The notes beneath the pieces are model-generated. The model had not been told where the DNA came from. It saw nothing but the letters and a program-made list of their open reading frames with translations, and made no database searches. From Ruminococcus sp. (GTDB lineage: Bacteria > Bacillota > Clostridia > Oscillospirales > Ruminococcaceae), in NCBI GenBank assembly GCA_017542125.1, contig JAFXXU010000035.1:1-64000 (forward strand): a stretch of 64,000 nt of DNA, read 5' to 3'. How positions within the stretch are numbered: position 1 is the stretch's first letter; each line of letters opens with the position of its first letter. Shown in pieces: positions 37,612 through 61,532 of the stretch. The position numbers and the translations under genes are program-made.

Positions 37612-37640
37612 CCCGCCGCACCGGGGATGGTGCAGGCGGG
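37612..37640. terminator. Terminator between convergent genes
   Basis: Hairpin CCCGCC-GCACC / GGTGC-A-GGCGGG with one bulge, followed by an AT-rich tract; it serves the AlgJ-like gene and may serve the convergent gene at 37646. Confidence 0.75.
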
Positions 37641-37645
37641 TCTTA

Positions 37646-38116: not shown

Positions 38117-38151
38117 GAAAGAAAGAGCCGCGGGCGCGGGGCTCGCGGCTC
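38117..38151 (-). terminator. Terminator of the giant surface-protein operon
   Basis: 8-bp stem (38125-38132 with 38144-38151, GAGCCGCG/CGCGGCTC), followed on the minus strand by TTTCTTTC. It lies 51 bp beyond the stop codon at 38202. Confidence 0.75.
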
Positions 38152-38201
38152 AGATGTTTGATGGGATCTCAGTAAAAGAATTAGTATTCTGTTATTTCAG
38201 C

Positions 38202-41200
38202 TCAGCCGCCTACGCCGGATGGTGGAGTTACTCTTTCGGTATAAATCTTCGCGTGCGTATAGATCAGGTAGTCTGTTGCAAATGTACCTGTTTTTGCAGC
38301 GGCATCAGTTGATGAACTATCCTGCATGGTTACTTCCAAAGTAATCTTATAGTTTGAATAGATCCTTTTATTTCCGTTGGTGTCTGTTCCGTTTTCAAAA
38401 TCATCTCCTGAAATAATCGTCAGTTCAATTGGAATGCTGTAAATATCATTGATGAAATTAAGATCGTTCTTGTCAAATACAAATGAGCATTCCGTTGAAC
38501 CCGCTGTGATTGTTCCGGCACTATCACCGAACTGTATTCCCGAAAGGTAATCGTTCAGTATGAGTGGAGTTGTATAGGATCCATCAGCATTTCTTCTGCT
38601 TAGTCTTACCACACATTTGATGTAATCGCATTCTGAGGCAGCTATCTTGCAGTTGGTAATGCCATAGTTCCCTTGTGTTTCAATCACGGATACAGAGGAT
38701 TCTTGCGGGTCGCGCCTGTTGATGCCAAGCTGCTGCAATTCTCCTTTGTTTGGAATAGTGACTGCTTCATAGGAAAGTGCAGCACCTTGTTCGCTGGCTG
38801 TGTAGTAGATTTTGGTGCTTTCTTCTTTATCATAAGTGTTGCTGAAAGCTGTCTGAGCGTTAACGGATGCAATGTTAGAATAAGCCCATACAACAGTACC
38901 TCGTTCTGCATCCTCGGGCTTTCCGTAGAACTGATCTGAGAGGTCTGTGCTTTCCTCGCTTCCGTCAAAAATCATTGTGACCCTGGCTTTGATCACAGTC
39001 TTTCTGTTGTTCTCTGAATTGGTTTTAATCAGCTCGGATAGGTTCTGATCGGATTTGACTTCAATATAGTTAGAGTTTCCGTTATACGACAGAGCTGTAG
39101 ATGTCAGATTGCCTTCATATCCAATCTGTCCTTCAGAAGGAGTGACCTGAATGTTTTCAGCCAGTATTCCGACTTCTGTTTTTGTAGGATTGGAAGCATT
39201 ATTGAACTTATTGAGCTTGATTAGAAAGCTTTGGAAAAGATCTGCATGCTCAAGATTGGTAAAAACATTATTCTTTCCGGCCTGAGTCAATTCTATAGTT
39301 GCACGAAGATCTGCTACTATAGTGTTGTTTTCAGCGGTGATCTGTTCAGGATCCGACAAGGAGTCAATATACACCTGATTTGAATAAATAACTCCGAGAT
39401 AGAGATCAGATCTTTGATTTACAGCAGTTGTAACTTTTGATGGGAACTGGCCTTCGCCTTCATCAAGTTTACTCTTGGAACCTATATCATAATGATAAAC
39501 CTTTTCAGAGTTTGGACTTGATGGTGTGTAGATCGTCAGGAAATACCGCTCGGCTATCTCATTAACGCCTTCAGGGAAAGAAAGAGTGAGATTATACCTT
39601 TGATACCCGTTTCCGCTGTCAGATGCATCTTCATATAAGCGCATAAGTTTGCCGTTCATTACGCTTCCGCTGTTCACCTTGGCTGTTCCGGTACCTCCAG
39701 CCTGATCTACGCAGACAAACTCTCCGTCATTGGCTGCTTCGGCTGTTATGATCAAGAGATCGTTGAAGCATAAAGGAGTAAATGCTGCAGAATCCGAATC
39801 CGTAAATGTATTCAGATTAAGATAACTTTGATTCTGAGAATCAGGTACCGAAAAACTTGTTGAGGTCAGAGAATTGAGATAATAGGCCTTTCCGCTGCGG
39901 TTTACGTCCACTAAAACCATTTCCGTATCAGAAGGGAAGCTGTCGGGCGTTATTCCGACTTCTGCAAAAGTAGAATTCTTAAACTCAAGATATCTCGGTG
40001 AATAAGGAGTGATCAGTGAATCTCCGCCTTCAAGGGCATTTATCCATTCTTGAAGATTTCTCTTATAGACATATGCTATTTCCATCGTGACTGGAACGCC
40101 GATGTTCTCGATCAGCATATTTGTTTCATTCTGGCTTCTGATGCTGGCCGGATCTGCTGTTCTGTCATAATTCGTTCCGGATTCAAGCTTGATTCTGAAA
40201 TCATATTCCAACAGCTTGCGGCAGTAAACGGGAATATAAAGGTGATAAGCTACCTTAGTGGTGTTGGATGGGTCGAAGAACTGAACATCCACAAGCGTGA
40301 ACTGGGCTTTTTCCGCTACCGTATCAGTGTGGGATTCATCCATATAGATCTTGCCGGAAGTACTATTACGTAATAGGCTGTCATATCCTGATGTAGCTTC
40401 GACAAGTTTTCCCTGGGATGGATCGTATTGATACCTAGTCAGCACTACCCGATACTTTCCGGCATCGTCAATAGCAAAATTAGCAAAATCGCTGCTTGAA
40501 GTGTTTGTAAGCAGGTGAATATAGTTGTTGATGTAGTTGGTCGCTTGTGTAGCATTTGAGATATCAAGGATAAGAACCGGGAATTCGTAGCCCGAAACAC
40601 CGGAAAGCTTATCGCTGGCTTCCTCGGCAAAGGTTGATTGTCTTGTAATATAGGAGTTATAAAGCTCCTGCATATTTGCCTTGAAAGCAGTTATATCGGT
40701 AGGGTATCCGTCAGCCGCTTTGATGTAGTTAGGTTTATTAGCCTGAACATCATCATTGATCTTTTTCAGGACAGCAGAAGCTTCTCCGCCTGCTACCGCG
40801 CTCAGAGGGCTGATACCGTCACCGGTAAGGATCTTTGAACCGTCAAATGTTACATAAGGGTTGATATGAACGTATGGGTCATTGAATGAATCAATATTGT
40901 TGGTATTGTTTATTGTAGAAGCAGTAGTATTGCTCTGAGTGCCAAGATAATCAGCAAAAACAATATAACCGCCGTTTCCGTACGGATGTGTTGTGCAGGA
41001 GCCAATGATAGTTGCAAGCATAGTGTTATCCTCACGGGTTTCCTGACGCGAGAATGCAACAAGCTTGATAAGACCTTTATCACTGTCTACTATTGTTCCG
41101 ACTACATAACCTGCTGTTGTTCCGGTTACCGTCAGATCTTTGGCGTGAACATTGTAACCTTTGATAGGAGTAAGCAATTGTCCTACTAACCCTCCTGCAA

Positions 41201-44200
41201 CATTTCCAGTGCCTGTGCCTGTTACAGAGCAAGTATCGATTTCAAAGTTTTCTATACGCATATCCCATGGGACATTGCTTTTTCGTTCAGTATCTCTTTT
41301 TCCAACAATACCCCCTACAATTTTTCCGCTAATAGCATAACCACTAAGAGTACTATTCAATATTGTAAATTTAAGAGTACCATCATCCTTTGAGGAAACT
41401 CCTAAAACTCCACCGCAAAAACCATTTCCTTTAATAACAGCCTTAGCATTTGTGTTTGAATTAATAACAGTATCATCAACTTGAACCTGACACTTTGTGG
41501 TTGTGAAACCAACTAATCCTCCAACATATGTATCTGCTCCATTAGAGATAACCGTAATATTATTAACTGAGCAATGCTGTATTTTAGGAGAACACCTATT
41601 TAATGTTCCCATTAATCCGCCAGCATTAATACCTTTTGAGGGAACACTACATCCAACAACAGAAGCCGTTAGTTGTTCTGGATCACCAACTTTTATGTAT
41701 TCTATTGTTCCATCTGGAGCAGGATCTCCTGAACCAGCACGGCAAACTCCAATAATTCCGCCTACTCCATATTTAAAATTTGCTATGTCAGACTCAGCAT
41801 CACTATAAATCTCAGTAATATTGAAAATATGATTATTATAACTGATTTTGGGATTACCAGCCTGCCATCTACCAATCATGCCTCCTGCACCAGTAACTCC
41901 ATGAACTACTATACCATAGGATGATTCTGTATAAGAAGATTGCTGTTCAATTGTAATATTTCGACCGTTACTATTTGGTCCTGAACCAATAAAACCACCA
42001 GAATATTTTGCACCTCTAACATCTATGTTTCTTAGGGTAACATTTTGAATTTTAGTTCTACTATATAAAGTTCCAAAAAGCATGCCTGTCGATAAAACAT
42101 ATGATTTATCTATACCTTTATTCTTATCAGTAAATGTATACGAGGCATGATTTCCCGTACCTTTATCCACTACATCGCTTCTAACTTTTCCAGTAAGAAT
42201 AAAATCCTTGTAAGTTACTTCGACATTGTCTCTACCTTCTTGGCGATTAAATAATCCCAACCCCAAATCCGGTGCAGTATAAGTAGTATCGCCATCTCCG
42301 GCAACAGGTAAATATTGTGCATTATCAAAACCATCATCATAACTCACAAATCTTGTATTCTGATCAATAGTACAGCCTTTTCCGTCAAATCCGGCAACAT
42401 TCAATCTAAGTGCAGCATTGTTATTGAAAATATTACCAATGCCCTTATAACCATCAGGAAGATTGTATGTCACACCTGATGTCAGGTTAATAGTCCAAGC
42501 AGTGCTACTACCGCCCAGAGTCTTGGCAACATAGTTATCAGAATCTGACCCTGGTGTATAGTTTTCGATAATATAAGGTGTATCCGCTTGCTTTTGAGAA
42601 TCTGTTGCAGTCTGCCAAAATACATCCTTTGATGCGAGAGAAGTATAGTCAGTGCTAGTGTCTTCGCCTATTTCGCTATACAAAGCGTGCCTTGTTGTGC
42701 AATAACCATTGTAATATCCCAAAGGATTAGTTACAGATGTAGCATCAGCTGCCGTCTTCATTCCCATTCCGCTGTTTACAATCAAAGATATAATAAAGAA
42801 TGACTGTGCATTAGGAATAGTAATTGTAGAACCGGATACTGTAAAATTGCCCTCACTTGGATTAATATCCGTGATAGAATAATGCTTTGTACCGTTCTGA
42901 AGCATCTGAGCAGAATCTCTGTCATGATAAGCTGAAGCTATATTTACAGCATAACCGTTGATAACTCTGCCAACATACGGGTTAACATACAACCAAAGGT
43001 CATTAGTGGTTTCATGTGTGCTTGTGGTAGCAGTCATATCAGCCACAACTTTAGCTGTTTGATTTGTTGTAACATTAGCAGCGGCAAGCTTTGATGATGA
43101 TGAAACGGTACTCATATTTCTGAATATCAGACCGCCGTAAAGAACCACACCGACATATCCGCCAGTAGGAATAAGCTGAGCCTTATCTCCATTAAGACTA
43201 ATTACAGAAGCCCCAAAGTTTACCGTAACCTTATCAATGATATTATCGCCGCCATGTATTTGACCGATGATTGCGCCATAAGCAGTAGCAGTCGGAAACG
43301 TGTCCTGATATCCTATTTTTGCTATGGTGGTTTTGTCAACTGTTACTGTCAAATCCTTTACAACGCTTCCGTTGCTTGTTGCAATAAGCGGAAAGTCCGT
43401 CTGATTGATAATGGTCTTATTATTGCCGTCAATTACACCTCGGAACATTGTATCAGCTGAGGTTGAACCAAGACCGTTAAAATCAGTATTATTACTTACG
43501 GTTATACTGTCTGCACCGTTCTTTGGCTGAATAAGATAGTATGCTCCGGCAAGATGCTTACGAACATCATCTGTGGATTGACTCGATCCGGAAGCAGGAA
43601 CAAAAACAGTACCATCAAATGTAAAAGAAATATGATCGGGAGTAGCTTTATCATGACACCAGGTCGCACCGATAGCAACAGTTGTTCCGTCAGAAGTCGG
43701 TAGGCAGAGAGTATCACCGTTATTAGCATTACCACGTATTATTCTGGAAACACCTTCGAGCTGAGTACCTTCTTCTATTACATAAGGATCATTATAAGTA
43801 CCACAACCAGTAAGCGTGATTGATCTATGGTTTACTGCAAGCTGAAATTTCTTGCTTGATTTATTTACATCAGCAACATATGGACGAAACTCCCCTCTGA
43901 ACGTGGAGGAGACGGTTGAGTCAGGTGAGGTGAATGGTCCGCCGTTATTCTGCTTGTATGCAACATAATTGCTTGATCCGGAATACTGTAATTCTTGACT
44001 CGGGAACTGATTCTTATTTGCCTCGCTTGGAGTGCCCGTAACATAACCAAGCTCTGCGCCGTATGTAACTCTGTGTGGGCTTGTTCCGCCCCAGTCCTCA
44101 TCATAGGTAAAATTGTACACGCCGGAAGAATCAGAATCATACATAAATGATTCAAGCAGAGTAGCTCTTGAAAAAATAGATCTAGTTGTATTATATCCAT

Positions 44201-47200
44201 ATATATCAGACGATGCTGTGCTGATCTGGCTGGGTTTATTTTTAGTAATTCTACCATCAAGTTTAATATCCGAAAAAGTCACATTCAAAAACTTAGCAGT
44301 ACTTGATCCAAGTTTTCCGATCAAACTAGTTGCAACTTCCTTTCCCTCAGGAACGGCATAAGTTGAATTATTTGTATTTGAGACATGGTAAATATCAAGT
44401 GTTACATATCCTGTTGAAGAGTTTATTAATAGAGGAGCATAGGATGAAGACTTAGTACTAAAATTGTGAACCTGAATTCCATCCAAAGAAATGCTTCCAT
44501 TCACACTTGAAACCACTACGGGATTTGTATCTGAACCGCTGATAGTTCCGTATATGAGCGCGCCGGTGCCGCTTGTACCGACGGCGCCGATATTGCCCTG
44601 TAAAACTATATCTCCAATAGTAACATTTGCATTTACGTTATAAAACAGACCATTCTGCATCATATAATGCTGAGTCCCTGATAAAGAACTGAGCTTGGTA
44701 TTGCTCTTTTCTGCTTCGCACCCTTCAAATTCTTTATTGAAGAATTTGAATTTTCCGGATACGGTAACAGCCGAATCAACACTTACAGGATACCAACTGT
44801 AGCCATCCATCGTAAAACCGTTTGTGCTGTCGGTGGCGCTGATATTACCGTTATAAGGATCCGGGAAATATGGCTTTATGTTTTTGCAGGCATACTGATT
44901 AAGCCCCCAACGCATAAGCTTTGCGGGATCACTGGATAATGTAGCGACTCTGTCATCCACAGCATCAAGATTATAGTAGTATCTGGTGTTGCCATTTACA
45001 GTTGATTGTCCCTTGGTAGTTTTAGCAACATACGTAAGGCTGTTCGTAGCTGTGCTTTCGGTCTTGGGAGCACCTGTGATCTTGATAGAAATGATGCCCT
45101 GACTGTTATTCATTACAGATCCGTCCTTGGCGCTGTAAGCACAGATCTCATCGTAAACAAGACTACTGGGGATGTTGCTTCCTGAGTCTAAAGAAATAGT
45201 ATATGTCGAAGGATCAATTTCGAGATAGATACCCTTTCTTGATTGTTTATCTACCTCAGTATAGCCTTTATTAACTATATATCCAAAAGAAGCAGCTTTG
45301 GGTATATTTAATTTGATTGCGCTATAAGAAAGGGTTCCTATATCCCACTTTCCCGAAGCGGCGTAAACCAGTCCGGCGCCATGTTGAGCACCAGAACCTG
45401 TCATAGTAATATTTGAGGTCCCGTTTACGGTCAGCGATTGAAGGTTTACATTTGTCTCTGCCCAGGAATAACCGAGAAGACCGCCCATAGAAGATTTATC
45501 TTTAACATTACCACTTACAGTAAGATTTGATATCGTTACATCATCTACTGTAAGGGTTCTTAAAGACTTTCCATCCGTGTTGCTTCCTTCAATACTCGCA
45601 ACCAAACCACCGATTTTTTGTATCTTTGACGAAGTATTGCTAATTTCTCCTGAAATGGTTATATCTTCAAAATCCCAGGAGGTTGCTGTATTTGATGTAT
45701 AATTAATATAACCTATTACTCCACCAAGGCGATAACCGTCGTTAGTGTTTGAGCCGGTTAATGTCCCAGCGTATGTTCCCCCACTGACCGTTATGCCGGT
45801 TATGGAACTATCAGCCACTCCAATTGCTCTTCCGGCATTTCCATTTTTATCGCCATTTATCGTAACTGAAAGCGTACTAGCCGTATTACAAGAATTAAGG
45901 CTTAGCGCCCCTGAGGCTTCCGCAGCAAAGCAACCCGCATAAATACCATCCTGCTTTGCAGTAATTTCCATGCTTCCGTCCATAGAAAGATTGCTGAAGG
46001 TTGTTCCACTTACCTTTCCAAATAAACCATTAAGTTTATGAAAATATATAGGCTTGTTCCCAACATTCTTTACATCCAGGATAATGCTGCCGTTGTTGCC
46101 TGCAAAGGTTGAACCGCTGTATTGGATCTTTTTCGTTCCGTTATCGCGGGTTATTCCTTTAAGACCTGTTCCGCGCAGATCTATTACGGCATTGCTTGCA
46201 AGAGAAAGCGCGGTGCTTGCACCGATGCTTGTTCCTGAGAGTATATCGTTCGAGCTTATATCTATCTGAGAAAGGATAGAGAGCTTAGCATAGTCCTCAG
46301 CATCTGCTATTACGTTTGCATTAGTAGGGGAGCCTATTGTTATTGTGTGGTTCGAATTCTCTGTCAAAACATTTGCCTTGACAAGGTTTCCGGCATTTGT
46401 CAGAGAGCCTGCGTTAAATACAATCACATCTCCCCAGGAGCCAACGTTGTCCACAACTATATTGCTTCTTGAGAAAGTCCATCCGGAGTCTGCATAGATC
46501 AGAGCGTTATCACGGTTGGCCACGATCTGTCCATTGAGAGCAGAGGAGAATGGTTGGGCATTGGTAAGGTTGATCGTGCCGCTCATCCTGAGTACTCCGT
46601 TTTCAAGATCGTTTACGATAGCTCCGCCGTAAAAGTCGCTGACTTTACTTGAGGAGGAACCGACAGTTATATCTTTTGCGTAAATATAGCTTTTCTTTGC
46701 TTCGTCAATAAGACCGCCGTATTTCACATCGGTGCCGTTTTCACCGTCTGAAGCAACATCAATTGTATCAAACTCAATATATGAAAGCTCTGGAGCTTCA
46801 GCAATGCATCCGCCGTATTTCAAGGCAGATAAAGTATTATTGGAATCTGCCGTAATATCGGAAACAGAAAGAGTTGTTGTAAGATCGTTGCCTGTAAGGT
46901 ACTGACCAATCAAACCGCCGTACCGTGCGGCTTTTTTATACTCAAGACTGGTTCCAAGAGTGTTGAGTTCAGAAGAAACCGTAGTCTTTCCAGCAGCTCC
47001 GGTGATCTCAACAGTTCCGTTATTCTTAAGAACGCCGATAAGACCGCCGGCTGAGCTTGTATCTTCGGTAACGCTGTTAAGAAGGCAGTTTATCGCATAA
47101 TTACTTGTATCGAGAGTGAAAGTAGAACCGGAAGGGACCTCATAGTAACCAAACAAGCCCCCTTCGCCTGCGGTGCCGGAGATCATCTGATTTACTGCAT

Positions 47201-48200: not shown

Positions 48201-48231
48201 GATCATCACGCTCCATAGTACAATGATCCTA

Positions 48232-49269: not shown

Positions 49270-49308
49270 TTAGGCCGCCTCCTTCCTGACGGTATTTTAG
49301 GGTATTTA

Positions 49309-50205: not shown

Positions 50206-50243
50206 TGCCGATACCTCCTTTTCGTGTAATAAAAGGGAACATT

Positions 50244-51455: not shown

Positions 51456-51464
51456 TTTCCTCAC

Positions 51465-51605
51465 CTCCCGATGATGTATTCGGTGCCTTGACCCGTCCTG
51501 CGGAACCTAGCTGAAAATCACAAATTTTCAACAAACTTTCAGGGCTAGATTTGTGCATTATGCTGCATTCAGAGCTAACGGGTATATTAAGGTATTATTA
51601 TCTAC
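51465..51605 (-). promoter_or_regulatory. Long, structured 5' leader of the B-C-D-giant operon
   Basis: About 140 nt between promoter and start. On the minus strand CTAGC and CTGAAA pair with TTTCAG and GCTAG around a loop, followed by GGTTCCGCAGGACGGGTCAA and GGCACC. It could be a regulatory RNA, but it does not match the c-di-GMP-I consensus I know; no riboswitch class is claimed. Confidence 0.35.
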
Positions 51606-51634
51606 ATTATAGCATATTTCAAGCCCATTGTCAA
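51606..51634 (-). promoter_or_regulatory. Promoter of the B-C-D-giant operon
   Basis: Minus strand: TTGACA (51629-51634), 17 bp, TATAAT (51606-51611). Confidence 0.85.
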
Positions 51635-51715
51635 CTGATTTTGTAGGATTTGTTGCATTTTCGGGCAGAAATTTTTGCCTTTCCGGCGGCGTGCAATAAT
51701 AGGATTGTTAAGTAT

Positions 51716-51738
51716 AAAAAACGCCCCCTTGCGGGGGC
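51716..51738 (-). terminator. Second of two tandem terminators after gene A
   Basis: GCCCCC/GGGGGC stem (51723-51728 with 51733-51738), 4-nt loop, followed on the minus strand by six T residues. Confidence 0.9.
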
Positions 51739-51748
51739 TGATCGGGGA

Positions 51749-51779
51749 GAAGAAAACCCCCGGACTTGTGATCCGGGGG
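51749..51779 (-). terminator. First tandem terminator after gene A
   Basis: Stem CCCCCGGA/TCCGGGGG (51757-51764 with 51772-51779), followed on the minus strand by TTTTCTTC. The tandem pair insulates gene A from the operon promoter at 51606. Confidence 0.88.
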
Positions 51780-51814
51780 ACGTGGTTGTTTAGTTAGATT
51801 TGTTTAGTGTTATA

Positions 51815-52813
51815 TCAGCCGCCCTGCTGTGTGTTCAGCGAAGGAACTGCAACACCGTTGTCAGCCGGTGCTGCCGTGTTATATTCCAGTGCAAACTTGA
51901 ATGATACAGTTACATTATCGAGTGTGGAGATGACATTATCTGTCTTAAGCTTAGCATCCTCGCCCTCGAAATAGAGGTATACATAAACAGGAGTTCCGTC
52001 TGCAGTTACAGCTGGAATTGAATCCATACATGTTTGCTGGTCCGTTGTGTAAGCTGTTGTTGCTGCACTAGCTGCATTTACATAATACGAGGTCGTCGCT
52101 CCCGATACAGGTGCAAAGAAGTAAACCTTTTTGTTTACAACAACTGCTACTCTAAGGGCGGCATCAAGATCTTGTTGATTCTGAGCCATACCAGTATTAT
52201 TATTATTGGTTATAGTCATATCTTTAATCCAGAGAGACTGATTGAGATTACCTTGAGCAGTCGTCAAACTAAGTGCATCACCTGAAGACTTCAGATAATA
52301 AGTATACTTTACATAATAGCCTTCACCTAAGTCATATTCGCTATCAGCATCCTTATCAACATAGATAATTTCATGCTTTGCATTTGTTCCTGCTGCTGCA
52401 TCAACCGTTTCAGTAGTTGTGGCAAACGGTGCTGTTCCAAGAGTTCTATAACCATCGGTTGTCAAATCAGTGGAAGCCTGACCTGCACTAGCTGCGGCAG
52501 CGGTATTAGACTTCGTACTGTATGCTACATACCAAGTATCGGTATTAGCCGTTGATGTTGCATGAAGCTGAATACCGGTTGACTGAGACGTTGTTGCCAG
52601 TTCATCCCAGTTCTGGTCACCAGCAGTAGCAACTTCGTTGATCAGAAGACCCTGATCAGCCTTTGCCTGAACCTGCATGTTCTGTACTGTTACTTCCTTA
52701 TTCATCGTAAACCATGCATAAGTTGCGGTTGAGAGCATGATCGCGGAGGTGGTGAGCATCGCGATCGCGGGGACCAATTTTCTCTTTGCAGAGTTTCTCT
52801 TAGTGTTTGCCAT
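51815..52813 (-). CDS. TasA/camelysin-like secreted fibre protein A
   Basis: 332 residues, ATG behind AAGGAA. The N-terminus ALSTATYAWFTMNKEVTVQ is the form of a SipW-dependent signal peptide: hydrophobic core, aromatic TYAWFT, then mature protein. The mature part is Ala/Thr-rich with a beta-sandwich core (YYVKYTYYLKSSG, LDAALRVAVVVN, VYVYLYFEGEDA, TVSFKFALE); the same strand pattern appears in the plus-strand protein at 54180. TasA-type proteins polymerise into biofilm fibres. Strong own promoter and tandem terminators suggest high expression as a separate unit. Confidence 0.78.
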   Translation of the reverse strand: MANTKRNSAKRKLVPAIAMLTTSAIMLSTATYAWFTMNKEVTVQNMQVQAKADQGLLINEVATAGDQNWDELATTSQSTGIQLHATSTANTDTWYVAYSTKSNTAAAASAGQASTDLTTDGYRTLGTAPFATTTETVDAAAGTNAKHEIIYVDKDADSEYDLGEGYYVKYTYYLKSSGDALSLTTAQGNLNQSLWIKDMTITNNNNTGMAQNQQDLDAALRVAVVVNKKVYFFAPVSGATTSYYVNAASAATTAYTTDQQTCMDSIPAVTADGTPVYVYLYFEGEDAKLKTDNVISTLDNVTVSFKFALEYNTAAPADNGVAVPSLNTQQGG

Positions 52814-52936
52814 AATTCATTTTCCTTTCGTAATGTATTTCGTTCTTACGGCGGGGCTTTTTACCCGCCTGCCCTGACAGCCCCGAGCGCCGATAACTCA
52901 TTGGCTGCCGACTGCCTTCCGTAATTCTATGGTCTT
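52814..52936 (-). promoter_or_regulatory. GC-rich leader of gene A
   Basis: On the minus strand CGGGGCT pairs with AGCCCCG and GGCGGG with CCCCGCC in mutually exclusive hairpins near 52850-52890. It may affect stability or termination; no known riboswitch recognised. Confidence 0.35.
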
Positions 52937-52965
52937 ATTATATACCAAAACGGTGCCGTTGTCAA
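52937..52965 (-). promoter_or_regulatory. Promoter of gene A (TasA-like)
   Basis: Minus strand: TTGACA (52960-52965), 17 bp, TATAAT (52937-52942). Confidence 0.88.
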
Positions 52966-53307
52966 GAATTTCAGCGATGGGATAAATAAGTTTAGAGATT
53001 ATAACAAATTGACCCTTTTTCTTTATGGCTAATTCCACAAATCAGACGTTTTTTATTTTAATTTATTCAAAAACGACCATTTTGGTACATTTTTATTTGT
53101 GTACGTCTTGCAGTAAATCTGCACATACTGCGAGCGCTCGGTTGTGCAATGTGACGGAAACAACGAAACCGTTTGAGTGAATTTCATAGTTTGTTCACAC
53201 TTTCGGTTGAAAAATCCTCTTATAAACCTATGGCATTATTACCAAAAAATAGGGTGAAACTTTTTGCTTTCCAAATGAAATTTATTCAAAAAGGGACGCC
53301 TTTTTCA
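52966..53307. other. AT-rich divergent control region of the fibre locus
   Basis: No gene. A 14-bp direct repeat AATTTATTCAAAAA occurs at 53060-53073 and 53279-53292. The region separates the left and right arms of the locus and is more AT-rich than flanking genes; it is a natural place for a shared regulator to bind. Confidence 0.5.
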
Positions 53308-53336
53308 TTGACAAATTGTGCAGTTTGGTGTATAAT
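53308..53336 (+). promoter_or_regulatory. Promoter of the EAL-TasA-SipW-AAA operon
   Basis: TTGACA (53308-53313), 17 bp, TATAAT (53331-53336), 45 nt before the EAL-like gene. Confidence 0.88.
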
Positions 53337-53381
53337 AGAATAGAGTATCTCTATGCATATATTATAAAGGAGGGAACAGGG

Positions 53382-54146
53382 ATGCCGGAAGCAGTTCAGA
53401 CATTGGTCGGGGGGCTGAGAGCAATAGAGCTCCACTACCGCCCTATCAGGGAATCCTCCAGCGGAAATACCGCTTTCTTACAATCCCAGACCAGGCTAAA
53501 TACTCCCGGGCTCGGCACCCTGATGCCCGAAAACTTCCGCGACGTCGCCGAGATAACCAACCAGTGCATCTCCCTCTTCGATCTGGAGCTGCTCCAGGCT
53601 ATGGAGGCCGCCGAAAGGTTCGTTGAGCGCGAGGTCGTCTTCGGATGGCTGTCGGTGTATATGCCCGCCGAGTATCTGAGAGATATTAGAGCCGAGCGGA
53701 ACCTTATGGAGTTCGCCCGGAGGTATAACGTGCATACCAATAAGATCTGCTTCGCCGTCTCGGCCAAGCTCCTGGAGGAAAAGGACGGCAGAGCAGCCAC
53801 CGTTATGAAGAATCTCCGCAACCGGGGCTTCCATTTTATGCTGACAGGCTTCGGCTCCGATTCCTGCCCGATGATGAAGCTCTCGGAGTTCCCCGTGGAC
53901 TACGTCCTGCTCTCGCCGGAGGTAACACAGTTCCTGGGCAAGACCGAGCGCTCTGACGGTGCGGTGAAGTCGATAGTCGATTTCGTCTCCGAGCTGGATG
54001 CCACCGCCATTGCCGACGGCGTGTCCTCCCTGCAGCAGGCAGAGAAGTTCTTCGAGTTCGGCTGCCTCTATACGGCAGGCTCCCTCTCGGGCAAATACGT
54101 CACCGAGAAATACGTGAGAAAGAAAAACGATGAGACCGAAACTTAA
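53382..54146 (+). CDS. Degenerate EAL-domain protein
   Basis: 254 residues from the ATG at 53382 (GGAGG 8 nt upstream). The whole length aligns in pattern with an EAL c-di-GMP phosphodiesterase: AIELHYRPIRESSSG is the ELHYQPI start, GFHFMLTGFGSDSCPMMKL the DDFG loop and TAIADGVSSLQQAEKFFEFG the AEGVE segment. The key residues are changed (EAL to AFL, DDFG to TGFG, E of AEGVE to D), so catalysis is unlikely. It probably senses or transmits a signal as an inactive EAL receptor. No membrane segment or GGDEF domain. First gene of the rightward operon. Confidence 0.8.
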   Translation: MPEAVQTLVGGLRAIELHYRPIRESSSGNTAFLQSQTRLNTPGLGTLMPENFRDVAEITNQCISLFDLELLQAMEAAERFVEREVVFGWLSVYMPAEYLRDIRAERNLMEFARRYNVHTNKICFAVSAKLLEEKDGRAATVMKNLRNRGFHFMLTGFGSDSCPMMKLSEFPVDYVLLSPEVTQFLGKTERSDGAVKSIVDFVSELDATAIADGVSSLQQAEKFFEFGCLYTAGSLSGKYVTEKYVRKKNDETET

Positions 54147-54179
54147 GTTTATATATACATTTATAAAGGAGGGGCAGCG

Positions 54180-54893
54180 ATGGCGGACAAAACAGTAAAT
54201 GTCCTGGAGCTGCGGCGAAAATCCAAAGAGGTAAAGAGATATGTCGTCCTGACAAGGATACTGGGGCTCCTGGTAATAATCCTTGTGGCGATAATCGCGA
54301 TAGCCTACGCGATATCATATTTCTACGATAAGTTCGGCAGCTTTACGGTAAAGGTCAATAAATACGATATGATGCGTCAGGGCCTTACCCTTTCGGAGAC
54401 ACCGGAGTACGATAAGACGATCTCGGTGCTCAACGCGAATATCGTCTACGATATGACCAACATCAGCGGCGCGGATCTCCCGGCGAACATTGATATGATC
54501 AACGGCAGCCATAACGGGGAGAGCTACATAGCCTACACCTTCTACCTTATAAATGCCGGAAGCGATACGATCTCCTACGACGGAGAGATGAATATCGAGA
54601 ACGTCACCAAGAACGTTGACGACGCCATACGGATAGCCGTCTACGTCAACGGAGAGAAAACGGTCTACGGCAAGACAAAGTCTGACGGAACGGGAATGGA
54701 ATCCGACTGCGATAAGGAGTTCTTCTCGGCCACCACCGTTATGAAGACCCTTCGGGAGGGCTTCGAGCCAAAGGCAAAGGACAAGTACACCGTAGTAATC
54801 TGGCTGGAGGGCAACGACCCCGATTGCATCGACGATCTGATTGGCGGCACCCTGAAGCTCTCGATGGATTTCAAGATAACCGAATCGACTTAA
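54180..54893 (+). CDS. Membrane-anchored TasA-like protein
   Basis: 237 residues, ATG after AGGAGG. A basic cytoplasmic tail (RRKSKEVKR) is followed by a membrane segment (about 24-46) ending AIAYAISYFYDKFGSF, again aromatic-rich like a SipW-type signal. The mature domain (SYIAYTFYLINAGSDTISY, DDAIRIAVYVNGE, YTVVIWLEGNDPDCID, GTLKLSMDFKI) matches the strand pattern of protein A at 51815. It may be an anchoring or minor fibre subunit. 33 bp after the EAL-like gene and 21 bp before the signal peptidase gene. Confidence 0.78.
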   Translation: MADKTVNVLELRRKSKEVKRYVVLTRILGLLVIILVAIIAIAYAISYFYDKFGSFTVKVNKYDMMRQGLTLSETPEYDKTISVLNANIVYDMTNISGADLPANIDMINGSHNGESYIAYTFYLINAGSDTISYDGEMNIENVTKNVDDAIRIAVYVNGEKTVYGKTKSDGTGMESDCDKEFFSATTVMKTLREGFEPKAKDKYTVVIWLEGNDPDCIDDLIGGTLKLSMDFKITEST

Positions 54894-54914
54894 TTATAAG
54901 GGAGAAGAACAGAT

Positions 54915-55679
54915 ATGAAAAAAGCGTTGAAAATAATAGGAAATGTATTAGTGTGGATCCTGCTCATCTTTGCATTGCTCATAACCATCGTTGTGTTCTC
55001 ATCCGACCGCAACGGCGGCGTGGCGAACCTCTTCGGCTTTATGCCGATGACCGTTGAAACGGGATCCATGGAGCCCACCTTCTACGAGGATGACCTTATA
55101 ATCGTCAAGGAAGTGGATGATATCTACTCCCTCAAGGAGGGCGACGTTATCACCTTCTGGACCATCATCGACGGCCAGAGAGTAAAGAACACCCACCGTA
55201 TCGTAAAGGTCAACGAGCTTGAAAACACCCGCACCTTCGTTACCCGAGGCGATAACAACACCGCCGACGATACCGATACCGCCAAGGCCGGCGACATCAT
55301 CGGCAAATGGACCGAGACCAGGATCCCCGGCTTCGGCAAGGTGATGCGCTTCTTGCAGACCAGGACAGGCTTCTTCATCTGCATAATCCTCCCGATGGCG
55401 ATCTTCTTCCTCTATGAGCTTTACAGGTTCATCGCAACACTCATAGAGATCAGGAAGCCCCGCCTCACCGAGACCGACGAGGAGGAGATCAAGCGCCGCG
55501 CCATAGAGGAGTACCTGGCAAGCCAGAAGGCCAAGGAGGGCGAGCAGCCCGCTGCCGAGGCTCCCAAGGCCGAGGAAGCTCCCGCTGCTGAGGCGGATCC
55601 CGTTACCGAGGCGCCTGCTCCCGAGGCGACCGCCGCACCCGCAGAGAACACAGACGCCGGTGAGGGAAAGACCGAATAA
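54915..55679 (+). CDS. SipW-type signal peptidase I
   Basis: 254 residues. N-terminal helix (about 7-28), then catalytic Ser51 in VETGSMEPTF, the ER-type general base His94 in KNTHRIVKV (bacterial SipS-type enzymes use Lys) and Asp113 in FVTRGDNN. A second helix at about 155-175 is followed by a low-complexity Ala/Glu/Pro tail of about 75 residues, presumed cytoplasmic. SipW enzymes process TasA-type fibre proteins, and five candidate substrates lie in this locus. AGGGAGAAG precedes the ATG. A second SipW-type domain is encoded at the end of the 57330 gene. Confidence 0.88.
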   Translation: MKKALKIIGNVLVWILLIFALLITIVVFSSDRNGGVANLFGFMPMTVETGSMEPTFYEDDLIIVKEVDDIYSLKEGDVITFWTIIDGQRVKNTHRIVKVNELENTRTFVTRGDNNTADDTDTAKAGDIIGKWTETRIPGFGKVMRFLQTRTGFFICIILPMAIFFLYELYRFIATLIEIRKPRLTETDEEEIKRRAIEEYLASQKAKEGEQPAAEAPKAEEAPAAEADPVTEAPAPEATAAPAENTDAGEGKTE

Positions 55680-55703
55680 ACTGATAATTGATCGGAGAAG
55701 GCT

Positions 55704-57272
55704 ATGAACGAATTTCTAAAATGGTTCTTCGTGTTTATTTCCGAGATGCTGAAAGGCTTCGGCATGATCTTTTCGGGCATCGGAAAGGGCATAGTACAGA
55801 TATTCAATATCAAAAACTACATAGACATATTCAAGGCCCACTCACCGGATTTCACCGTGCTGAGCTGGATACTGGCGATACTCTCTATTATAATAGTTAT
55901 CGCAGTGTATGTGCTGATAGGCTTCATCATCGTACTGCTCATCAGGAAGTATGTGCGCTTCCGCCACTCGCTGGTCAGCAATGAGGATCTGCTGGAGGAG
56001 ATCTCAAATCTCCAGCGCCAGGTGCTCAAGATGACCAAGGAGAAGGACGAGATCATGGCGATGAAGGTGGCTCAGATGGGCCTGCCCGTGTCGGGCGCTC
56101 TCTCCTATGCGGGCGCCGACGGCACCGCCGTGCCCTATCAGGGCGAGGGCGAGGCTCCCCAGGCTGTGGAGGACGGTATCGTCCAGACGGCAGACAGGCG
56201 TTTCTCCCGTCTGCTGGAGGTGGACAGCTTCTACCGCAACTACACTCCGCCGGAGTACGACAACTCCATTACGCTGGAGGGCATCTGCGAGGCTTACCGC
56301 AACTTTGCCTGCTCCAAGATGCACCTCTACTACGATATCAAGACGATACGCCTGTTCATTGCGGGTATGGCTTCCACCAAGCTCATAATCCTGCAAGGTA
56401 TCTCCGGTACAGGTAAAACATCGCTGCCTTACTCCTTCGGTAAGTTCTTGCAGAACGATACTACCATAGCTTCGGTGCAGCCCTCGTGGCGTGACCGTAC
56501 CGAGCTCTTCGGCTACTTCAACGAATTCACCAAGAACTTCAACGAGACCGAAGTCCTCAAGAGGATCTATGCCTCGGGCTATAACAACGATGTCAACCTG
56601 ATACTCCTCGATGAGATGAACATCGCCCGTATCGAGTATTATTTCGCCGAGATGCTCTCCATACTCGAAATGCCCAACGCAGACGAGTGGGAGCTGGATA
56701 TCGTGCCCAACGCCTGGAGCACCGACCCTGTCAAACTGGATAAGGGCAAGCTGAGGATCCCTCAGAACGTATGGTACATCGGTACGGCTAATAACGACGA
56801 CTCGACCTACGCTATCTCCGATAAGGTTTACGACCGTGCTCAGCCCATCAACCTGGATGCAAAGGGTATCGCCTTCGAGGCCCCCGTGCAGGAGCCTATC
56901 AACCTGGGCTACGACCACCTCCAGGCTATGTTCGACGAGGCCTTCGAGAAGTATCCCATATCGCAGGATAATCTCAGAAAGATCCAGCAGCTCGACCTGT
57001 GGGTGATCGAGAAGCTGCGTGTGGCTTTCGGTAACCGTATCTTAAAGCAGATGGGCCTGTTCGTGCCTGTTTACGTTGCCTGCGGAGGCGACGAGCTGGA
57101 CGGTATCGACTACGTCCTCGCTACCAAGATATTCAGAAAGTTCGAGTCCCTCAACCTGGCTATGCTGCGTGAGGAGCTGAGAGAGCTGGTGGTATATATC
57201 CACAAGTCCTTTGGCAAGAACAAGATGAACGAGTCCGTGGCATACCTCGAAAGACTGCAGAAGCTGTTCTGA
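55704..57272 (+). CDS. Membrane-anchored McrB-like AAA+ ATPase
   Basis: 522 residues, ATG after CGGAGAAGG. N-terminal amphipathic stretch (about 5-30) and one clear membrane helix (about 53-81), then a short coiled coil (SNLQRQVLKMTKEKDEIMAM), a linker and an AAA+ domain. Walker A is LQGISGTGKTSLPYS (Lys238), Walker B ILLDEMNIARIEYYFAEML (Asp303-Glu304), sensor region WYIGTANNDDSTYAIS and arginine-type KVYDRA, all in the McrB/MoxR style. The usual McrB DNA-recognition N-domain is replaced by the membrane anchor. The DUF2357/McrC-like partner is next downstream. Confidence 0.82.
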   Translation: MNEFLKWFFVFISEMLKGFGMIFSGIGKGIVQIFNIKNYIDIFKAHSPDFTVLSWILAILSIIIVIAVYVLIGFIIVLLIRKYVRFRHSLVSNEDLLEEISNLQRQVLKMTKEKDEIMAMKVAQMGLPVSGALSYAGADGTAVPYQGEGEAPQAVEDGIVQTADRRFSRLLEVDSFYRNYTPPEYDNSITLEGICEAYRNFACSKMHLYYDIKTIRLFIAGMASTKLIILQGISGTGKTSLPYSFGKFLQNDTTIASVQPSWRDRTELFGYFNEFTKNFNETEVLKRIYASGYNNDVNLILLDEMNIARIEYYFAEMLSILEMPNADEWELDIVPNAWSTDPVKLDKGKLRIPQNVWYIGTANNDDSTYAISDKVYDRAQPINLDAKGIAFEAPVQEPINLGYDHLQAMFDEAFEKYPISQDNLRKIQQLDLWVIEKLRVAFGNRILKQMGLFVPVYVACGGDELDGIDYVLATKIFRKFESLNLAMLREELRELVVYIHKSFGKNKMNESVAYLERLQKLF

Positions 57273-57329
57273 TCCCATCCCCGAGAGTGAATTATACTAT
57301 TATATAAGAGAAAGGGCGGTGAGGACTGA

Positions 57330-60290
57330 TTGAACGGCTTTTACGATGAATGGTATGAGGATTTCAAGGAGGCGGTAGATGCCTTCGGCGACGACGCGCT
57401 GTTCGATCAGCTCGACGCTCTCCTGCAATCCAGCAGAAATACCTTCGCCTTCAACCGCAAGCTGATGGAGAAGGCGATAGACGTCTCCTGGGTAGAGGCC
57501 ATAGAGAACGGCCTTATCCACGTTGACAACGTGCTGAGAAACCCGAGCCGAACGATCGAGGACGTGGAAGAGATCGTCCCCATAGAGCGCTCGCGGAAGA
57601 TCACGGTCGAGTCGGTAAAGCACCTTGCTCAGCATACCGACTTCATCCAGAGCATAGATAAGCGCACGGGCAAGATAACCCCGTCGAAGATATTAAATAT
57701 CCACAAGGAAGAAAGCTACCTTACATACGAGAATAAGTTTGTCAATACGCTGATCGACAGGCTGTTCATCTTCATAAACACCCGCTACGAAAAGCTGGCC
57801 CAGGTGGCAAGGGACGAGGAGGTATTCTCCCTCGGCTACGATACCTCCATAGATACCGGCAACGGCGGCAAAATGAAGATAGAGGTCAAGATCGAGACCT
57901 CCGACAGCCTGGAATCCACCGACGCCCACGGCGTCACCATCTGGCAGAGAGTGGAAAAACTCAAAAAGGTCATCGAGGGCTATAAGGGCTCGGATCTCTG
58001 TATGAAGCTGGGCAATAACTACATACGTCCCCCCGTAATGCGCACCAACGCCATTATGAAGAACGTTGAGCTCAAAGCCTGTCTGGCTCTGTGGCAGTAC
58101 ATCGAAGGCTATGATAAGGTGGGCTACGAGATCAACGTGGAGAATACTGCGGTCAAGCCGCAGAACAGGTATGTCGAGGATTTCTATAAGCTGGTCATCA
58201 TGAACCTGCTGCTGTTCAGAGCATATACCGTTGACAGCGAAAAGGAAATGACCGAGCTGAAGACCCAGAAGCTGAAGACCCTGACCCCGAAATTCGTCAA
58301 GCGGTTCGAGAAGGAGGTCGCCGACGACTACGGCATCCAGACGGATGCTGCGGTAGGCTATATCGCAGCCGACGGCGAGTTCCGTATGACCAAGAGGCTC
58401 CCAAAGAATATGAACCTGGTCTTTACGCAGATAAGCGAAGCGATAAAGATCGAGAAGGCCTATCTGGAGGAGCGCGAGAAGGAGCGTCTGGCAAGAGTTG
58501 CCGCCGAGGAGGAGGCAGAGCGTCTGCGCCTCGAGGAGGAAGCCCGCCAGGAGGAGCTCCGCCGCATAGAGGAAGCCAAGCGGGAGGAACGCGAGAGGCT
58601 CCAGCGCGAGAAAGAAGAGGAAGAAAGACGTATCCAGGAGCTTCTGGAGCAGAAGCGCCGCGAGCAGGAGGAGGAAGAGCGGGAACGTGCCCGCCTCGAA
58701 GCCGAGCGGCAGGCCAAGCTGGAAGAGCAGCGCCGCCTGGAGGAGGAAGCCCGCAAGAAGCGGGAGGAAGAAGAGCGCGTAGCTGCCGAGCGGGAAAGAG
58801 TTTTCCAGAACAAGCTCAAGATGCGCTCCGAGCTGGGTGAGGCAGAGGGCGTTGACGTAGAAAAGCTGGAAGAGCACGAGCACGAGGACGAGGAAAAGCT
58901 GGAACAGCAGGTCTACGAGGAAGTCACCACCGAGGAGATCGAACAGGTCAAGGCGGAAATGGAGGAGGCCGCGGGCGAGGAGCAGTCCGAGTTCGAGGAT
59001 CCCAGAGCCATCGCCGCCAGAAAGAAGCTGGAGCAGCAGAGGCAGGAGAAGGAACGCTTCGAGGCCGAGCGTGCCGCAAGGCTCAAGGCCGACCGCGCCA
59101 AGTTCGAGGCCAAGCCCTTCGAGCAGATCAGGTGGGAGTATTCCCACAACCCGATCAGGCTGCTGCAAAGGCTCATACAGTATATCCTCGTTTACTGGTT
59201 CCATATCATCCCCGAGGATACCGACAATCCCGACCACAAGCGGCTGCGTGCCGAGCTGGCTGAGAAGAAGCGCATAAAGGAAGAGGAGGCCGCCGAGCGC
59301 GACAAGATGGAGGTCTACTACCGCAAGTATGCAGGCACCTTCAAGTACCGGTTCAGGCGCTATCTGGCAGACCGCAAGTTCAAGAAGAAGAAAAAGCTGG
59401 AGGCAAAGAGCAGGCCGAAGCCGACCTATACTCCGCCCAAGCGTACTCCCGAGGAGCAGCGTGAGATCGATCTCGAGATGAAGCGCCTCTACAGAGAGTA
59501 CCATGTAAGCCTCTGGCAGAAGCTGGTCAGGGCACATAAAGAGCGCAAGAGGATGCGCAACGAGCTGCGCGAGAGCGTAGGTCAAAAAAAAAATGACCTA
59601 GAAGGCCAAAGCAAGGTAAAAAGCAGGGCGCAGAAGGCCGTTGACGTGATCCTGACAGTGATACTTGTCATCTCGATGATCATCTGCGGCTATGTTCTCA
59701 TCAATGCCGCGAGAGGCAAGGCTGTGAACCTGTTCGGCAAGAGCATACTCCAGGTCGTGACCGGCAGCATGGAGCCCTCGATACACGTGGGGGACTACAT
59801 AATCACCGAAAAGACCGATGTTTCCGAGCTCAAAGAGGGGGATATAATCTCCTTCTACTCGGATCAGGAGGATGTAAAGGGCAAGATCGTCACCCACCGT
59901 ATCGTCTCGGTGAACGATGACGGCTCCTTTGTTACAAAAGGCGATTCAAGGTCTGACGGCTCACCTAACGAAACGTTGGACACCGCCCCCGCCCAGCCCG
60001 ATAAGGTCATTGGTAAATATGCGGGCAAGTCCAGGTTCTTTATCTGGCTCTCATCCTTCGGCGAGACCAGAAAGCTCGTAATGATAGTCGTGATCCTGCC
60101 TCTGGCAGTGATGGCGGTATTCGAGCTGAGATCTGTGACGAGGCTGGGCAGGAAGGTCCGTGAGGAAAAGCGGCAGCAGGCTGCCGAAAGCAAACAAAAG
60201 CTCATAAGAGAAGAGATCGAAAGGGAAAAGCGCCGCCTTGAACGGGAGGGCGTTTCCGAGGACGAGGTGAAGAACGGTGAACCAAGATAA
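57330..60290 (+). CDS. DUF2357/McrC-like coiled-coil protein fused to SipW-type signal peptidase
   Basis: 986 residues, TTG start with GTGAGG upstream. Residues about 1-390 resemble DUF2357 proteins that pair with McrB-like ATPases (ESYLTYENKFVNTLIDRLF, and repeated helical segments); no PD-(D/E)xK nuclease motif could be identified by eye. Residues about 390-610 are a Lys/Glu/Arg coiled coil. A hydrophobic helix (RLIQYILVYWFHII) lies near 620. At 59584-59593 ten A residues mark the junction (codons 752-755). The C-terminal part (about 770-940) is a complete SipW-like peptidase: helix VILTVILVISMIICGYV, Ser813 in VVTGSMEPSIH, His856 in VTHRIVS, Asp872/Asp876, and a second helix near 925-945. 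One A more or less gives an immediate stop after the coiled-coil part. Confidence 0.8.
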   Translation: MNGFYDEWYEDFKEAVDAFGDDALFDQLDALLQSSRNTFAFNRKLMEKAIDVSWVEAIENGLIHVDNVLRNPSRTIEDVEEIVPIERSRKITVESVKHLAQHTDFIQSIDKRTGKITPSKILNIHKEESYLTYENKFVNTLIDRLFIFINTRYEKLAQVARDEEVFSLGYDTSIDTGNGGKMKIEVKIETSDSLESTDAHGVTIWQRVEKLKKVIEGYKGSDLCMKLGNNYIRPPVMRTNAIMKNVELKACLALWQYIEGYDKVGYEINVENTAVKPQNRYVEDFYKLVIMNLLLFRAYTVDSEKEMTELKTQKLKTLTPKFVKRFEKEVADDYGIQTDAAVGYIAADGEFRMTKRLPKNMNLVFTQISEAIKIEKAYLEEREKERLARVAAEEEAERLRLEEEARQEELRRIEEAKREERERLQREKEEEERRIQELLEQKRREQEEEERERARLEAERQAKLEEQRRLEEEARKKREEEERVAAERERVFQNKLKMRSELGEAEGVDVEKLEEHEHEDEEKLEQQVYEEVTTEEIEQVKAEMEEAAGEEQSEFEDPRAIAARKKLEQQRQEKERFEAERAARLKADRAKFEAKPFEQIRWEYSHNPIRLLQRLIQYILVYWFHIIPEDTDNPDHKRLRAELAEKKRIKEEEAAERDKMEVYYRKYAGTFKYRFRRYLADRKFKKKKKLEAKSRPKPTYTPPKRTPEEQREIDLEMKRLYREYHVSLWQKLVRAHKERKRMRNELRESVGQKKNDLEGQSKVKSRAQKAVDVILTVILVISMIICGYVLINAARGKAVNLFGKSILQVVTGSMEPSIHVGDYIITEKTDVSELKEGDIISFYSDQEDVKGKIVTHRIVSVNDDGSFVTKGDSRSDGSPNETLDTAPAQPDKVIGKYAGKSRFFIWLSSFGETRKLVMIVVILPLAVMAVFELRSVTRLGRKVREEKRQQAAESKQKLIREEIEREKRRLEREGVSEDEVKNGEPR

Positions 60291-60729
60291 GATAATGAAG
60301 CGCAGGATGATAACAGCCATTGTGCTGATGCTCATCTGCCTGATAGCTCTGCTTGTGTTCATCGGGCTTTACGTCGATGAGACCAAGCGGGTACAGGAGG
60401 TCTACCGTACCCAGTACAAGACCGAGCTGCGGCACGTGGTCGAGGAGATCGACATCTACCTTGAACCCGAGGGCGATGACGATCTGGTCTACCGTCGGGT
60501 ATGCAGCTATATGAGCAATGCCGGTGCCTTCGCCTTCCTCATCGAGGACTTTTCAGAGAAGCAGATACTTATAAACCAGATAAGCACCGCGCTTATCAAG
60601 TACCCCGTGCAGATGCAGCCGAAGCTGGAAGAGCTCAAGCAGGCGATAAACGATATCCTGGCAGAGCTCGATAAGGGCTATACCGAGCTTGACGAGCTGT
60701 TTCAGTCTATAGAATTAAAGGGAAATTAG
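60277..60729 (+). CDS. Small membrane protein of the fibre operon
   Basis: 150 residues, GTG start overlapping the end of the fusion gene by 14 bp (GAGGTGAAG upstream); ATG 60295 is an alternative. One membrane helix at about 11-32, then a helical extracytoplasmic or cytoplasmic domain (YRTQYKTELRHVVEEIDIYL, ISTALIKYPVQMQPKLEELK). No family recognised. The overlap implies translation coupled to the upstream gene. Confidence 0.7.
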   Translation: MNQDKIMKRRMITAIVLMLICLIALLVFIGLYVDETKRVQEVYRTQYKTELRHVVEEIDIYLEPEGDDDLVYRRVCSYMSNAGAFAFLIEDFSEKQILINQISTALIKYPVQMQPKLEELKQAINDILAELDKGYTELDELFQSIELKGN

Positions 60730-60748
60730 CCAAAGGAGTGATGAAAAA

Positions 60749-60973
60749 GTGAGCGAAAAGAGCAAGCTCAAAAAGGAGATAAAGATCTGCCGCCAGACCA
60801 TTGAGGAGATCGAGCGCAAGCGCTCCAGATCCCAGTCGGCGCTGGTTCAGGCAGTGCTTTTGCAGGAATCCCCCGACGAAATGGACGTTGAGTGGTTCAA
60901 TAAGTACACCGGCGAGATAACCGCATGCCGTAACCATATGATAGAGCTGCAGAAGAAACTCAATTCACTTTGA
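60749..60973 (+). CDS. Small coiled-coil protein
   Basis: 74 residues, GTG start with AAAGGAGTG upstream. Mostly charged helix with heptad character (LKKEIKICRQTIEEIERKRS, ending HMIELQKKLNSL). No signal or membrane segment. Last gene of the operon, 19 bp after the previous stop, and followed by a strong terminator. Possibly a cytoplasmic adaptor for the AAA+ or DUF2357 proteins; this is inferred from position. Confidence 0.65.
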   Translation: MSEKSKLKKEIKICRQTIEEIERKRSRSQSALVQAVLLQESPDEMDVEWFNKYTGEITACRNHMIELQKKLNSL

Positions 60974-60980
60974 TACCAAA

Positions 60981-61021
60981 CCGAGCCTGCCTTTCCCAAA
61001 AAGGCGGGCTCGGTGCTTTTT
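60981..61021 (+). terminator. Terminator of the fibre operon
   Basis: 14-bp stem with one G-T pair (60981-60994 with 61000-61013), then TGCTTTTT. Confidence 0.88.
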
Positions 61022-61239: not shown

Positions 61240-61501
61240 TCAAATGCGAGGACGGAGAGAAGTAGCAGAGCAGTTCTGTCTCAGAGAGCGCGGGCAAGGT
61301 GCGAGCCGCGTACAAGAGGCTTTGTGAATAACACTCCCGAGCAGCAAGCCGAACAGCCCCCGGGGCCCAGTAGGGGAGTCGTTTTACGCGCGTTACTGCG
61401 TATGAGAGATCGCGGGTCTTGATAACAATACGCCTGCGGTAATTCAGGTGGCACCACGGAAGCACAGCTTTCGTCCTGTACGAGGACGAAGGCTTTTTTT
61501 A
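61240..61501 (+). promoter_or_regulatory. T-box riboswitch for asnS
   Basis: About 260 nt leader. The specifier AAC (Asn) is at 61330-61332 within GAATAACACTCC. The antiterminator T-box AGGTGGCACC is at 61446-61455, whose UGGC pairs with the tRNA acceptor end; the fourth base fits the G discriminator of tRNA-Asn. The terminator is AGCTTTCGTCC/GGACGAAGGCT (61466-61476 with 61484-61494) followed by T8. Uncharged tRNA-Asn should promote readthrough into asnS. Confidence 0.93.
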
Positions 61502-61532
61502 TTGTATGATCAAAGGAAAGGATTGATTGTTT

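Follow-up and report, generated by a model that had tools for sequence, protein, structure and literature searches.

Why a McrB-like AAA+ protein and a DUF2357 protein should be encoded among signal peptidases and surface proteins was the question raised by a locus at 38.2–61 kb of the window, by which we mean the whole stretch of DNA analysed (64,000 nucleotides; positions 1 to 64,000 of contig JAFXXU010000035.1, Ruminococcus sp. assembly GCA_017542125.1). The draft genome carrying the window is 2.9 Mb in size, and its closest relatives among named genomes were Ruminococcus. The locus has two arms, with P0005, P0004, P0003, P0002, and P0001 on the minus strand and P0006–P0011 on the plus strand (Table 1). 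Every element named in a preliminary description of this DNA was present close to where it had been placed. We consider it rather likely that the locus encodes a membrane machine driven by nucleoside triphosphate (NTP) hydrolysis and coupled to the processing and assembly of pilins, a pilus or fibre locus of the CoCoPALM type. This reading as an energy-coupled pilin machine is based on gene linkage, gene fusion, and the intact peptidase and NTPase residues. Because a membrane-tied McrB relative is linked or fused to fibre-trimming enzymes, a defence-type module probably now helps to build cell-surface fibres in Ruminococcus-like gut bacteria.

A search for co-occurrence across genomes showed that the arrangement is not confined to one genome. 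With P0009 as the query, 17 of 61 genomes matched, 15 of them at E 1e-178 or better, and 12 of 16 same-genus genomes carried a P0009-type McrB (own genome included in each count); two of the four without it were 99% complete. With the McrB profile at E ≤ 1e-40 (own genome included), the order gave 45 matching genomes of 395 and the class 21 of 393, whereas in a sample across the phylum the profile matched 2 of 398, both from the window's own order; these counts take in the tandem and polytopic types described below. Of the 161 places found in the scan of named genomes, 80 were retained, with carriers including R. albus 8, R. flavefaciens strains, R. bicirculans 80/3, and Eubacterium ruminantium. 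All locus comparisons used stop-to-stop open reading frames (ORFs) rather than gene calls as gene models. Contig ends truncate many of a set of 97 loci, to which some genomes contributed twice. In this set, the plus-arm genes were found in 76 (P0006), 87 (P0007), 95 (SipW), 95 (P0010), and 64 loci (P0011, many copies being partial), and the minus-arm genes in 36 (P0005), 18 (P0001), 16 (P0004), 9 (P0003), and 9 (P0002).

The 59 larger loci were sorted into 43 with a single-anchor McrB, 11 of a tandem type, and 5 of a polytopic type, labels that we assigned from domain order and transmembrane (TM) data; two genomes gave two loci each, and there was some overlap with the loci of named genomes. 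The 43 single-anchor loci all contained both SipW and DUF2357, and 39 contained a pilin, 31 a P0007-like gene, and 23 an EAL gene; the McrB profile had been built from SipW-linked loci, and SipW itself was not a criterion for locus selection. The order of SipW, McrB, and DUF2357 was usually kept, with L143, L144, and L195 among the exceptions. SipW presence changed only twice on a 74-row tree of the McrB core, compared with a mean of 20.5 changes after shuffling, and twice again on a more careful 45-row tree. The linkage of SipW, McrB, and DUF2357 is neither chance nor specific to one genome.

P0009 carries conserved NTPase motifs. Its profile matched solved McrB at E = 8.8e-5 (profile positions 211–388), and four motifs were invariant in 19 of 19 aligned relatives: GISGTGKTS, DEMN, TANNDD, and the Arg of YDRA, which we take to be the Walker A, Walker B, signature motif, and arginine finger, respectively. 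These names also rest on the motif descriptions in the main text of PMC11090510. The signature letters NNDD fit the form given there, NxD followed by a second Asp, and also fit NxxD; the N-x-D pattern was found in 189 of 192 McrB ORFs, some counted twice. One strong TM segment (residues 62–80) was predicted, followed by basic residues and a charged stretch that looked heptad-like by eye. Given these basic residues and the positive-inside rule, the AAA+ part probably lies inside the cell.

The partner protein P0010 joins a DUF2357 part to a signal peptidase. Searched at full length, it gave no Pfam DUF2357 match; its first 397 residues matched at E = 3.9e-9, over the gathering score, as did 25 of 25 family members with the same Pfam family. 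Between this part and the C-terminus runs a long stretch rich in Glu, Arg, and Lys, judged by eye to be a coiled coil, and two TM segments (773–791 and 915–933) flank the SipW domain. The earlier claims of a membrane-anchored McrB-like ATPase, a DUF2357 protein, and two SipW-type peptidase domains were thus borne out, the last by P0008 and the P0010 C-terminus, each with an intact Ser-His-Asp triad. P0008 matched NF046067 at 4.1e-35 and TIGR02228 at 9.3e-27; both domains scored over the TIGR02228 cut-off and under that of NF046067. The triad was present in 232 of 252 aligned SipW rows (10 were gapped and 10 had other residues), a set that takes in the two of the window and counts some genes twice.

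Linkage and fusion of McrB/DUF2357 to signal peptidases, proposed before from this locus, held in many genomes. DUF2357 and SipW were encoded as a single ORF in 33 and as adjacent ORFs in 34 of the 67 decidable loci of named genomes, the fusion state being undecidable in the other 13 of 80. On the McrB tree of these 67 loci and the window, the fusion state changed five times, and at least two of these changes were forced by well-supported branches. Such changes of state, from fused to adjacent or back, would be expected if the two belonged to a single machine.

The likely substrates lie on the minus arm. Five aromatic SipW-like junctions had been counted previously; three of the five proteins (P0003, P0004, and P0005) have a hydrophobic stretch followed by a sequence that satisfies a strict motif, while P0002 has only a near-match, read by eye, and the strict motif was not found in P0007. 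Across loci, the YAWF-type motif occurred in 36 of 37 pilins and in 6 of 438 other genes, a count that is partly circular, as proteins with this motif went into the pilin profile. In hhalign comparisons, both P0004 and P0007 matched the pilin profile (94%, E = 2.4e-8, for each), the profile link between P0003 and P0004 was weak (48.6%), and P0002 had no profile link to the pilin family. The predicted structure of P0005 (predicted local distance difference test score, pLDDT, 72.9; predicted template modelling score, pTM, 0.75) had weak similarity to the thread subunit 7pnb. Fold support from the P0005 model for the term TasA-type is weak. P0001 is indeed a giant repeat protein: it contains 15 GG[LFIVA][VILMA][GAD] motifs, compared with a mean of 0.65 and a maximum of 4 in 1000 shuffles. 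It had no Pfam match, and its start is uncertain, a later MKK start being possible.

These surface proteins are more variable than the machine. Median identities to the window, taken over the 35 of 80 loci in which McrB, P0007, and a P0005-like gene all occurred, were 78.4% for McrB, 73.4% for P0007, 61.3% for the DUF2357 part, 59.8% for P0008, 46.3% for the fused or second SipW, and 36.7% for P0005. Minor subunits, where a match was found, were at 26.3% (P0004, 11 loci), 31.1% (P0003, 9 loci), and 27.6% (P0002, 8 loci). Judged by these identities, the engine is constant and the surface product variable, a pattern that may be characteristic of pili on which hosts or phages exert pressure.

The locus had been described as two divergent operons. 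The arms do diverge, and three transcription units fit the predicted signals better: sigma-70-like sites with a full score lie one each 5′ of P0005, P0004, and P0006, and two hairpins followed by T runs lie directly 3′ of P0005 on its own strand. The major pilin candidate P0005 therefore looks separately transcribed, as would be fitting for a shaft protein required in larger amounts than the others. Among the compared loci, a promoter-like site scoring at least 11/12 was found upstream of 26 of 36 pilin genes, compared with 77 of 403 control genes of the same loci. Leaders of ~120–140 nt precede P0004 and P0005 (window 51465–51600 and 52814–52936); neither gave an Rfam match at the gathering threshold, and no conservation of the P0005 leader was seen by eye among P0005 relatives.

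The first gene of the plus arm encodes the degenerate EAL protein noted earlier. P0006 matched Pfam EAL at E = 1.1e-29. Compared with three fuller EAL domains, P0006 and 12 relatives had all replaced the Glu of EAL, an Asn, the first Asp of DD, and a Lys, positions that we take to be catalytic. The last Glu had become Asp, and another Glu and the second Asp of DD were kept in some relatives. The genome carrying the window had 24 GGDEF matches, and loci L127 and L129 were adjoined by EAL or GGDEF-EAL proteins. The start of P0006 is probably the ATG at 53382, chosen by eye, because the TTG at 53316 in the ORF list falls within a promoter-like site.

From these parts we propose the following mechanism. 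Pilins would leave the cytoplasm through Sec, and P0008 and the P0010 C-terminus would cleave them. P0005 would form the shaft, P0004, P0003, and P0002 adaptors, P0001 the tip, and P0007 a membrane-held base. P0009 could assemble as a hexamer at the inner face of the membrane, with DUF2357 seated in its ring as McrC is in McrB. NTP hydrolysis would act, by way of the coil, on a peptidase with its active site on the outside, and this could time or drive the step in which cleaved pilins leave the membrane and join the growing fibre. With several catalytic residues lost, P0006 may be a regulatory or docking protein, perhaps a c-di-GMP sensor.

We assign the locus to CoCoPALM, a group named in a 2024 census in eLife (PMC11090510), so that the coupling is already in print. 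In the passages cited from that census, CoCoPALM systems have a McrB-like domain with an N-terminal FtsB-like TM segment and coil, a DUF2357 partner with a coil, associated signal peptidases, and a predicted link to pili. The window shares the McrB-like GTPase domain in P0009, DUF2357 with a coil (by eye), SipW-type peptidases, and the predicted pilus link, and the P0009 TM segment and heptad-like stretch could correspond to the FtsB-like feature. The SipW-DUF2357 fusion, pilin genes, EAL protein, and P0007 go unmentioned in those passages, although the supplement of the census may list the fusion. Among the papers listed in literature searches on DUF2357 or McrB with signal peptidases or pilus assembly, and on SipW with TasA or pilins, only this paper and its preprint dealt with the coupling. 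What the present analysis adds to the census are likely substrates, the fusion, the contrast between conserved NTPase residues and fast-changing pilins, separate promoter-like sites of high score, and a sister branch in which tandem McrBs of the membrane occur near transglutaminase-like surface proteins in loci tested.

Other fibre systems share parts of this arrangement. In tapA-sipW-tasA of Bacillus subtilis (PMC9674648) and sipW-bsaA of Clostridium perfringens (PMC7395162), a SipW-type peptidase likewise adjoins fibre-forming substrates; the McrB/DUF2357 module, second SipW, and giant tip protein of the window are absent from both as described in the passages cited. Archaeal threads and donor-strand pili resemble the locus in signal-peptidase-I processing and beta-sandwich subunits (PMC9715654), with the weak 7pnb similarity noted above. 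The cited part of that paper leaves undecided whether thread assembly is spontaneous or catalysed by machinery, and thus whether TasA- or thread-type donor-strand fibres need an assembly machine. The window differs in having an NTPase candidate, a putative motor physically joined to the processing enzyme, in many genera of its class. Escherichia coli McrBC shares the AAA+ core and DUF2357, whereas the module of the window has a membrane anchor, a peptidase fusion, and no Pfam match to a nuclease or methyl-DNA family. The locus offers a possible example of a defence-type NTPase redeployed in the cell envelope.

A sister branch points to further uses of the engine. The 11 tandem-type loci, mostly ordered McrB-DUF2357-McrB, contained no SipW and no pilin, and nine contained DUF2357; of the five polytopic-type loci, none had SipW, four had DUF2357, and two had a motif match. 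By hydropathy all 16 of these McrBs are membrane proteins. McrBs with poor N-terminal profile coverage were considered as unanchored forms, which was rejected because they too are membrane proteins by this measure. Placement of the tandem clade inside the SipW clade is insecure, as a single SipW clade was compatible with the 45-row tree (approximately unbiased test, p = 0.10). Membrane-anchored McrB-DUF2357-McrB triplets without SipW or pilins were seen in L153, L155, L157, L158, L191, and L192, all from the window's class, and the tandem McrBs of L153, L157, L191, and L192 have large neighbours for which one or two TM segments were predicted. Transglutaminase-like domains were found in two proteins of L153, one of L157, and one of L191, and not in the single protein tested from L193. 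These neighbours suggest that surface proteins other than pilins are also served by the membrane McrB/DUF2357 engine. Among the papers listed in a search on membrane McrBs and transglutaminases, none evidently dealt with such a pairing. In the more specific and speculative form of our proposal, which we hold to be doubtful, a restriction-type McrB ring with a DUF2357 stalk now works as an NTP-driven membrane motor whose movement reaches the peptidase by way of a coiled coil and powers or gates the assembly of donor-strand-type pili, while tandem McrBs of the sister branch serve transglutaminase-like surface proteins. Separately, loci L159–L161 encode McrB proteins of ~800 residues with 6–8 predicted TM segments and an adjoining DUF2357 ORF, which in L159 had weak zinc-ribbon matches.

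The preliminary description had left the AAA+ module between envelope assembly and quality control, and quality control is one of several candidate roles. Membrane-anchored AAA+ proteins often extract substrates, and DUF2357 is tied to the peptidase, so the module could extract or dispose of unprocessed or misassembled pilins or cleaved signal peptides while normal assembly proceeds independently. SipW systems also occur without it: the genome carrying the window has four SipW-type peptidases over the cut-off, two at the locus and two on another contig (C67), where a second cluster (L216, 11753–19899) encodes a 504-residue FAWF protein and another peptidase and gave no McrB or DUF2357 match. 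The motor is thus dispensable for SipW export in general. However, SipW was the only protease domain found in the operon with Pfam and NCBIfam, and quality control alone leaves the almost motor-level conservation of P0007 unexplained. We regard this explanation as unlikely and favour coupling to assembly.

Anti-phage defence, with the module acting as a type IV restriction relative and the pili as bystanders or as controlled phage receptors, appears improbable. P0009 is a McrB homolog and matched the PADLOC candidate PDC-M26A (E = 1.4e-37), a match through which defence-finding pipelines may mislabel the locus, and the CoCoNuT relatives are predicted defence systems in the main text of PMC11090510. 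Partial McrB-like matches below 60% identity occurred in 263 plasmid and 2 phage records, but none covered 80% of P0009. P0010, P0008, P0006, and P0007 had no PADLOC match at E ≤ 0.1, the linked genes are export and surface genes, and most same-genus genomes carry the module. The DUF2357 part itself gives a divided picture. No nuclease family was matched in Pfam among the 25 members, and no single acidic letter is fully invariant after residue 180, so that loss of the nuclease seems likely. Weighing against our proposal, D or E occupies positions 216, 247, and 262 in all 25 rows and Lys249 is present in 23, a conserved D/E-x-K pattern, and a nuclease or degraded nuclease fold is possible; positions 247–249 were predicted at a helix start and not in a strand.

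That motor and pilins merely share a locus, as chance neighbours or by selfish linkage, is very unlikely, since SipW, McrB, and DUF2357 stood together in 43 of 43 loci and DUF2357 and SipW formed one protein in 33, even though pilin-arm orientation varies between loci and GC content differs between the pilin arm (0.41–0.49) and the motor arm (0.50–0.57; window 1–38000, 0.554).

Table 1. Positions of genes and predicted signals at the locus, numbered from the first letter of the window.
Feature	Position	Strand	Description
P0001	38202..48209	-	3335-residue surface protein, GGLVG-type repeats; proposed tip or adhesin
P0002	48232..49269	-	345 residues, single hydrophobic segment, YARY near-match junction; proposed minor subunit
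P0003	49309..50205	-	298 residues, TFAWF junction; proposed minor subunit
P0004	50244..51464	-	406 residues, TLSWF junction, pilin-like; proposed minor subunit
Sigma-70 promoter-like site, 12/12, for P0004-P0001	51606..51634	-	
Two terminator-like hairpins 3′ of the P0005 gene	51723..51779	-	
P0005	51815..52813	-	332 residues, TYAWF junction; SipW-type major pilin candidate
Sigma-70 promoter-like site, 12/12, for P0005	52937..52965	-	
Sigma-70 promoter-like site, 12/12, for P0006-P0011 operon	53308..53336	+	
P0006	53382..54146	+	EAL-fold protein, several catalytic residues lost
P0007	54180..54893	+	237 residues, TM 27–45, pilin-like ectodomain, no WF junction; proposed membrane-held base
P0008	54915..55679	+	SipW-type signal peptidase; Ser51, His94, Asp113
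P0009	55704..57272	+	McrB-like AAA+ protein, membrane-anchored
P0010	57330..60290	+	DUF2357, long charged coiled-coil-like stretch, TM, SipW-type peptidase, TM
P0011	60277..60729	+	150-residue single-pass membrane protein, conserved partner
74-residue ORF closing the operon	60749..60973	+	read by eye

Upstream of the locus, window 32311–38083 encodes CotH-kinase-like, MutS domain V, AlgX-like SGNH, and YunG proteins. A T-box leader was found at window 61240–61481, followed by an ORF at 61527–62903 that presumably encodes an asparaginyl-tRNA synthetase, as which it reads.
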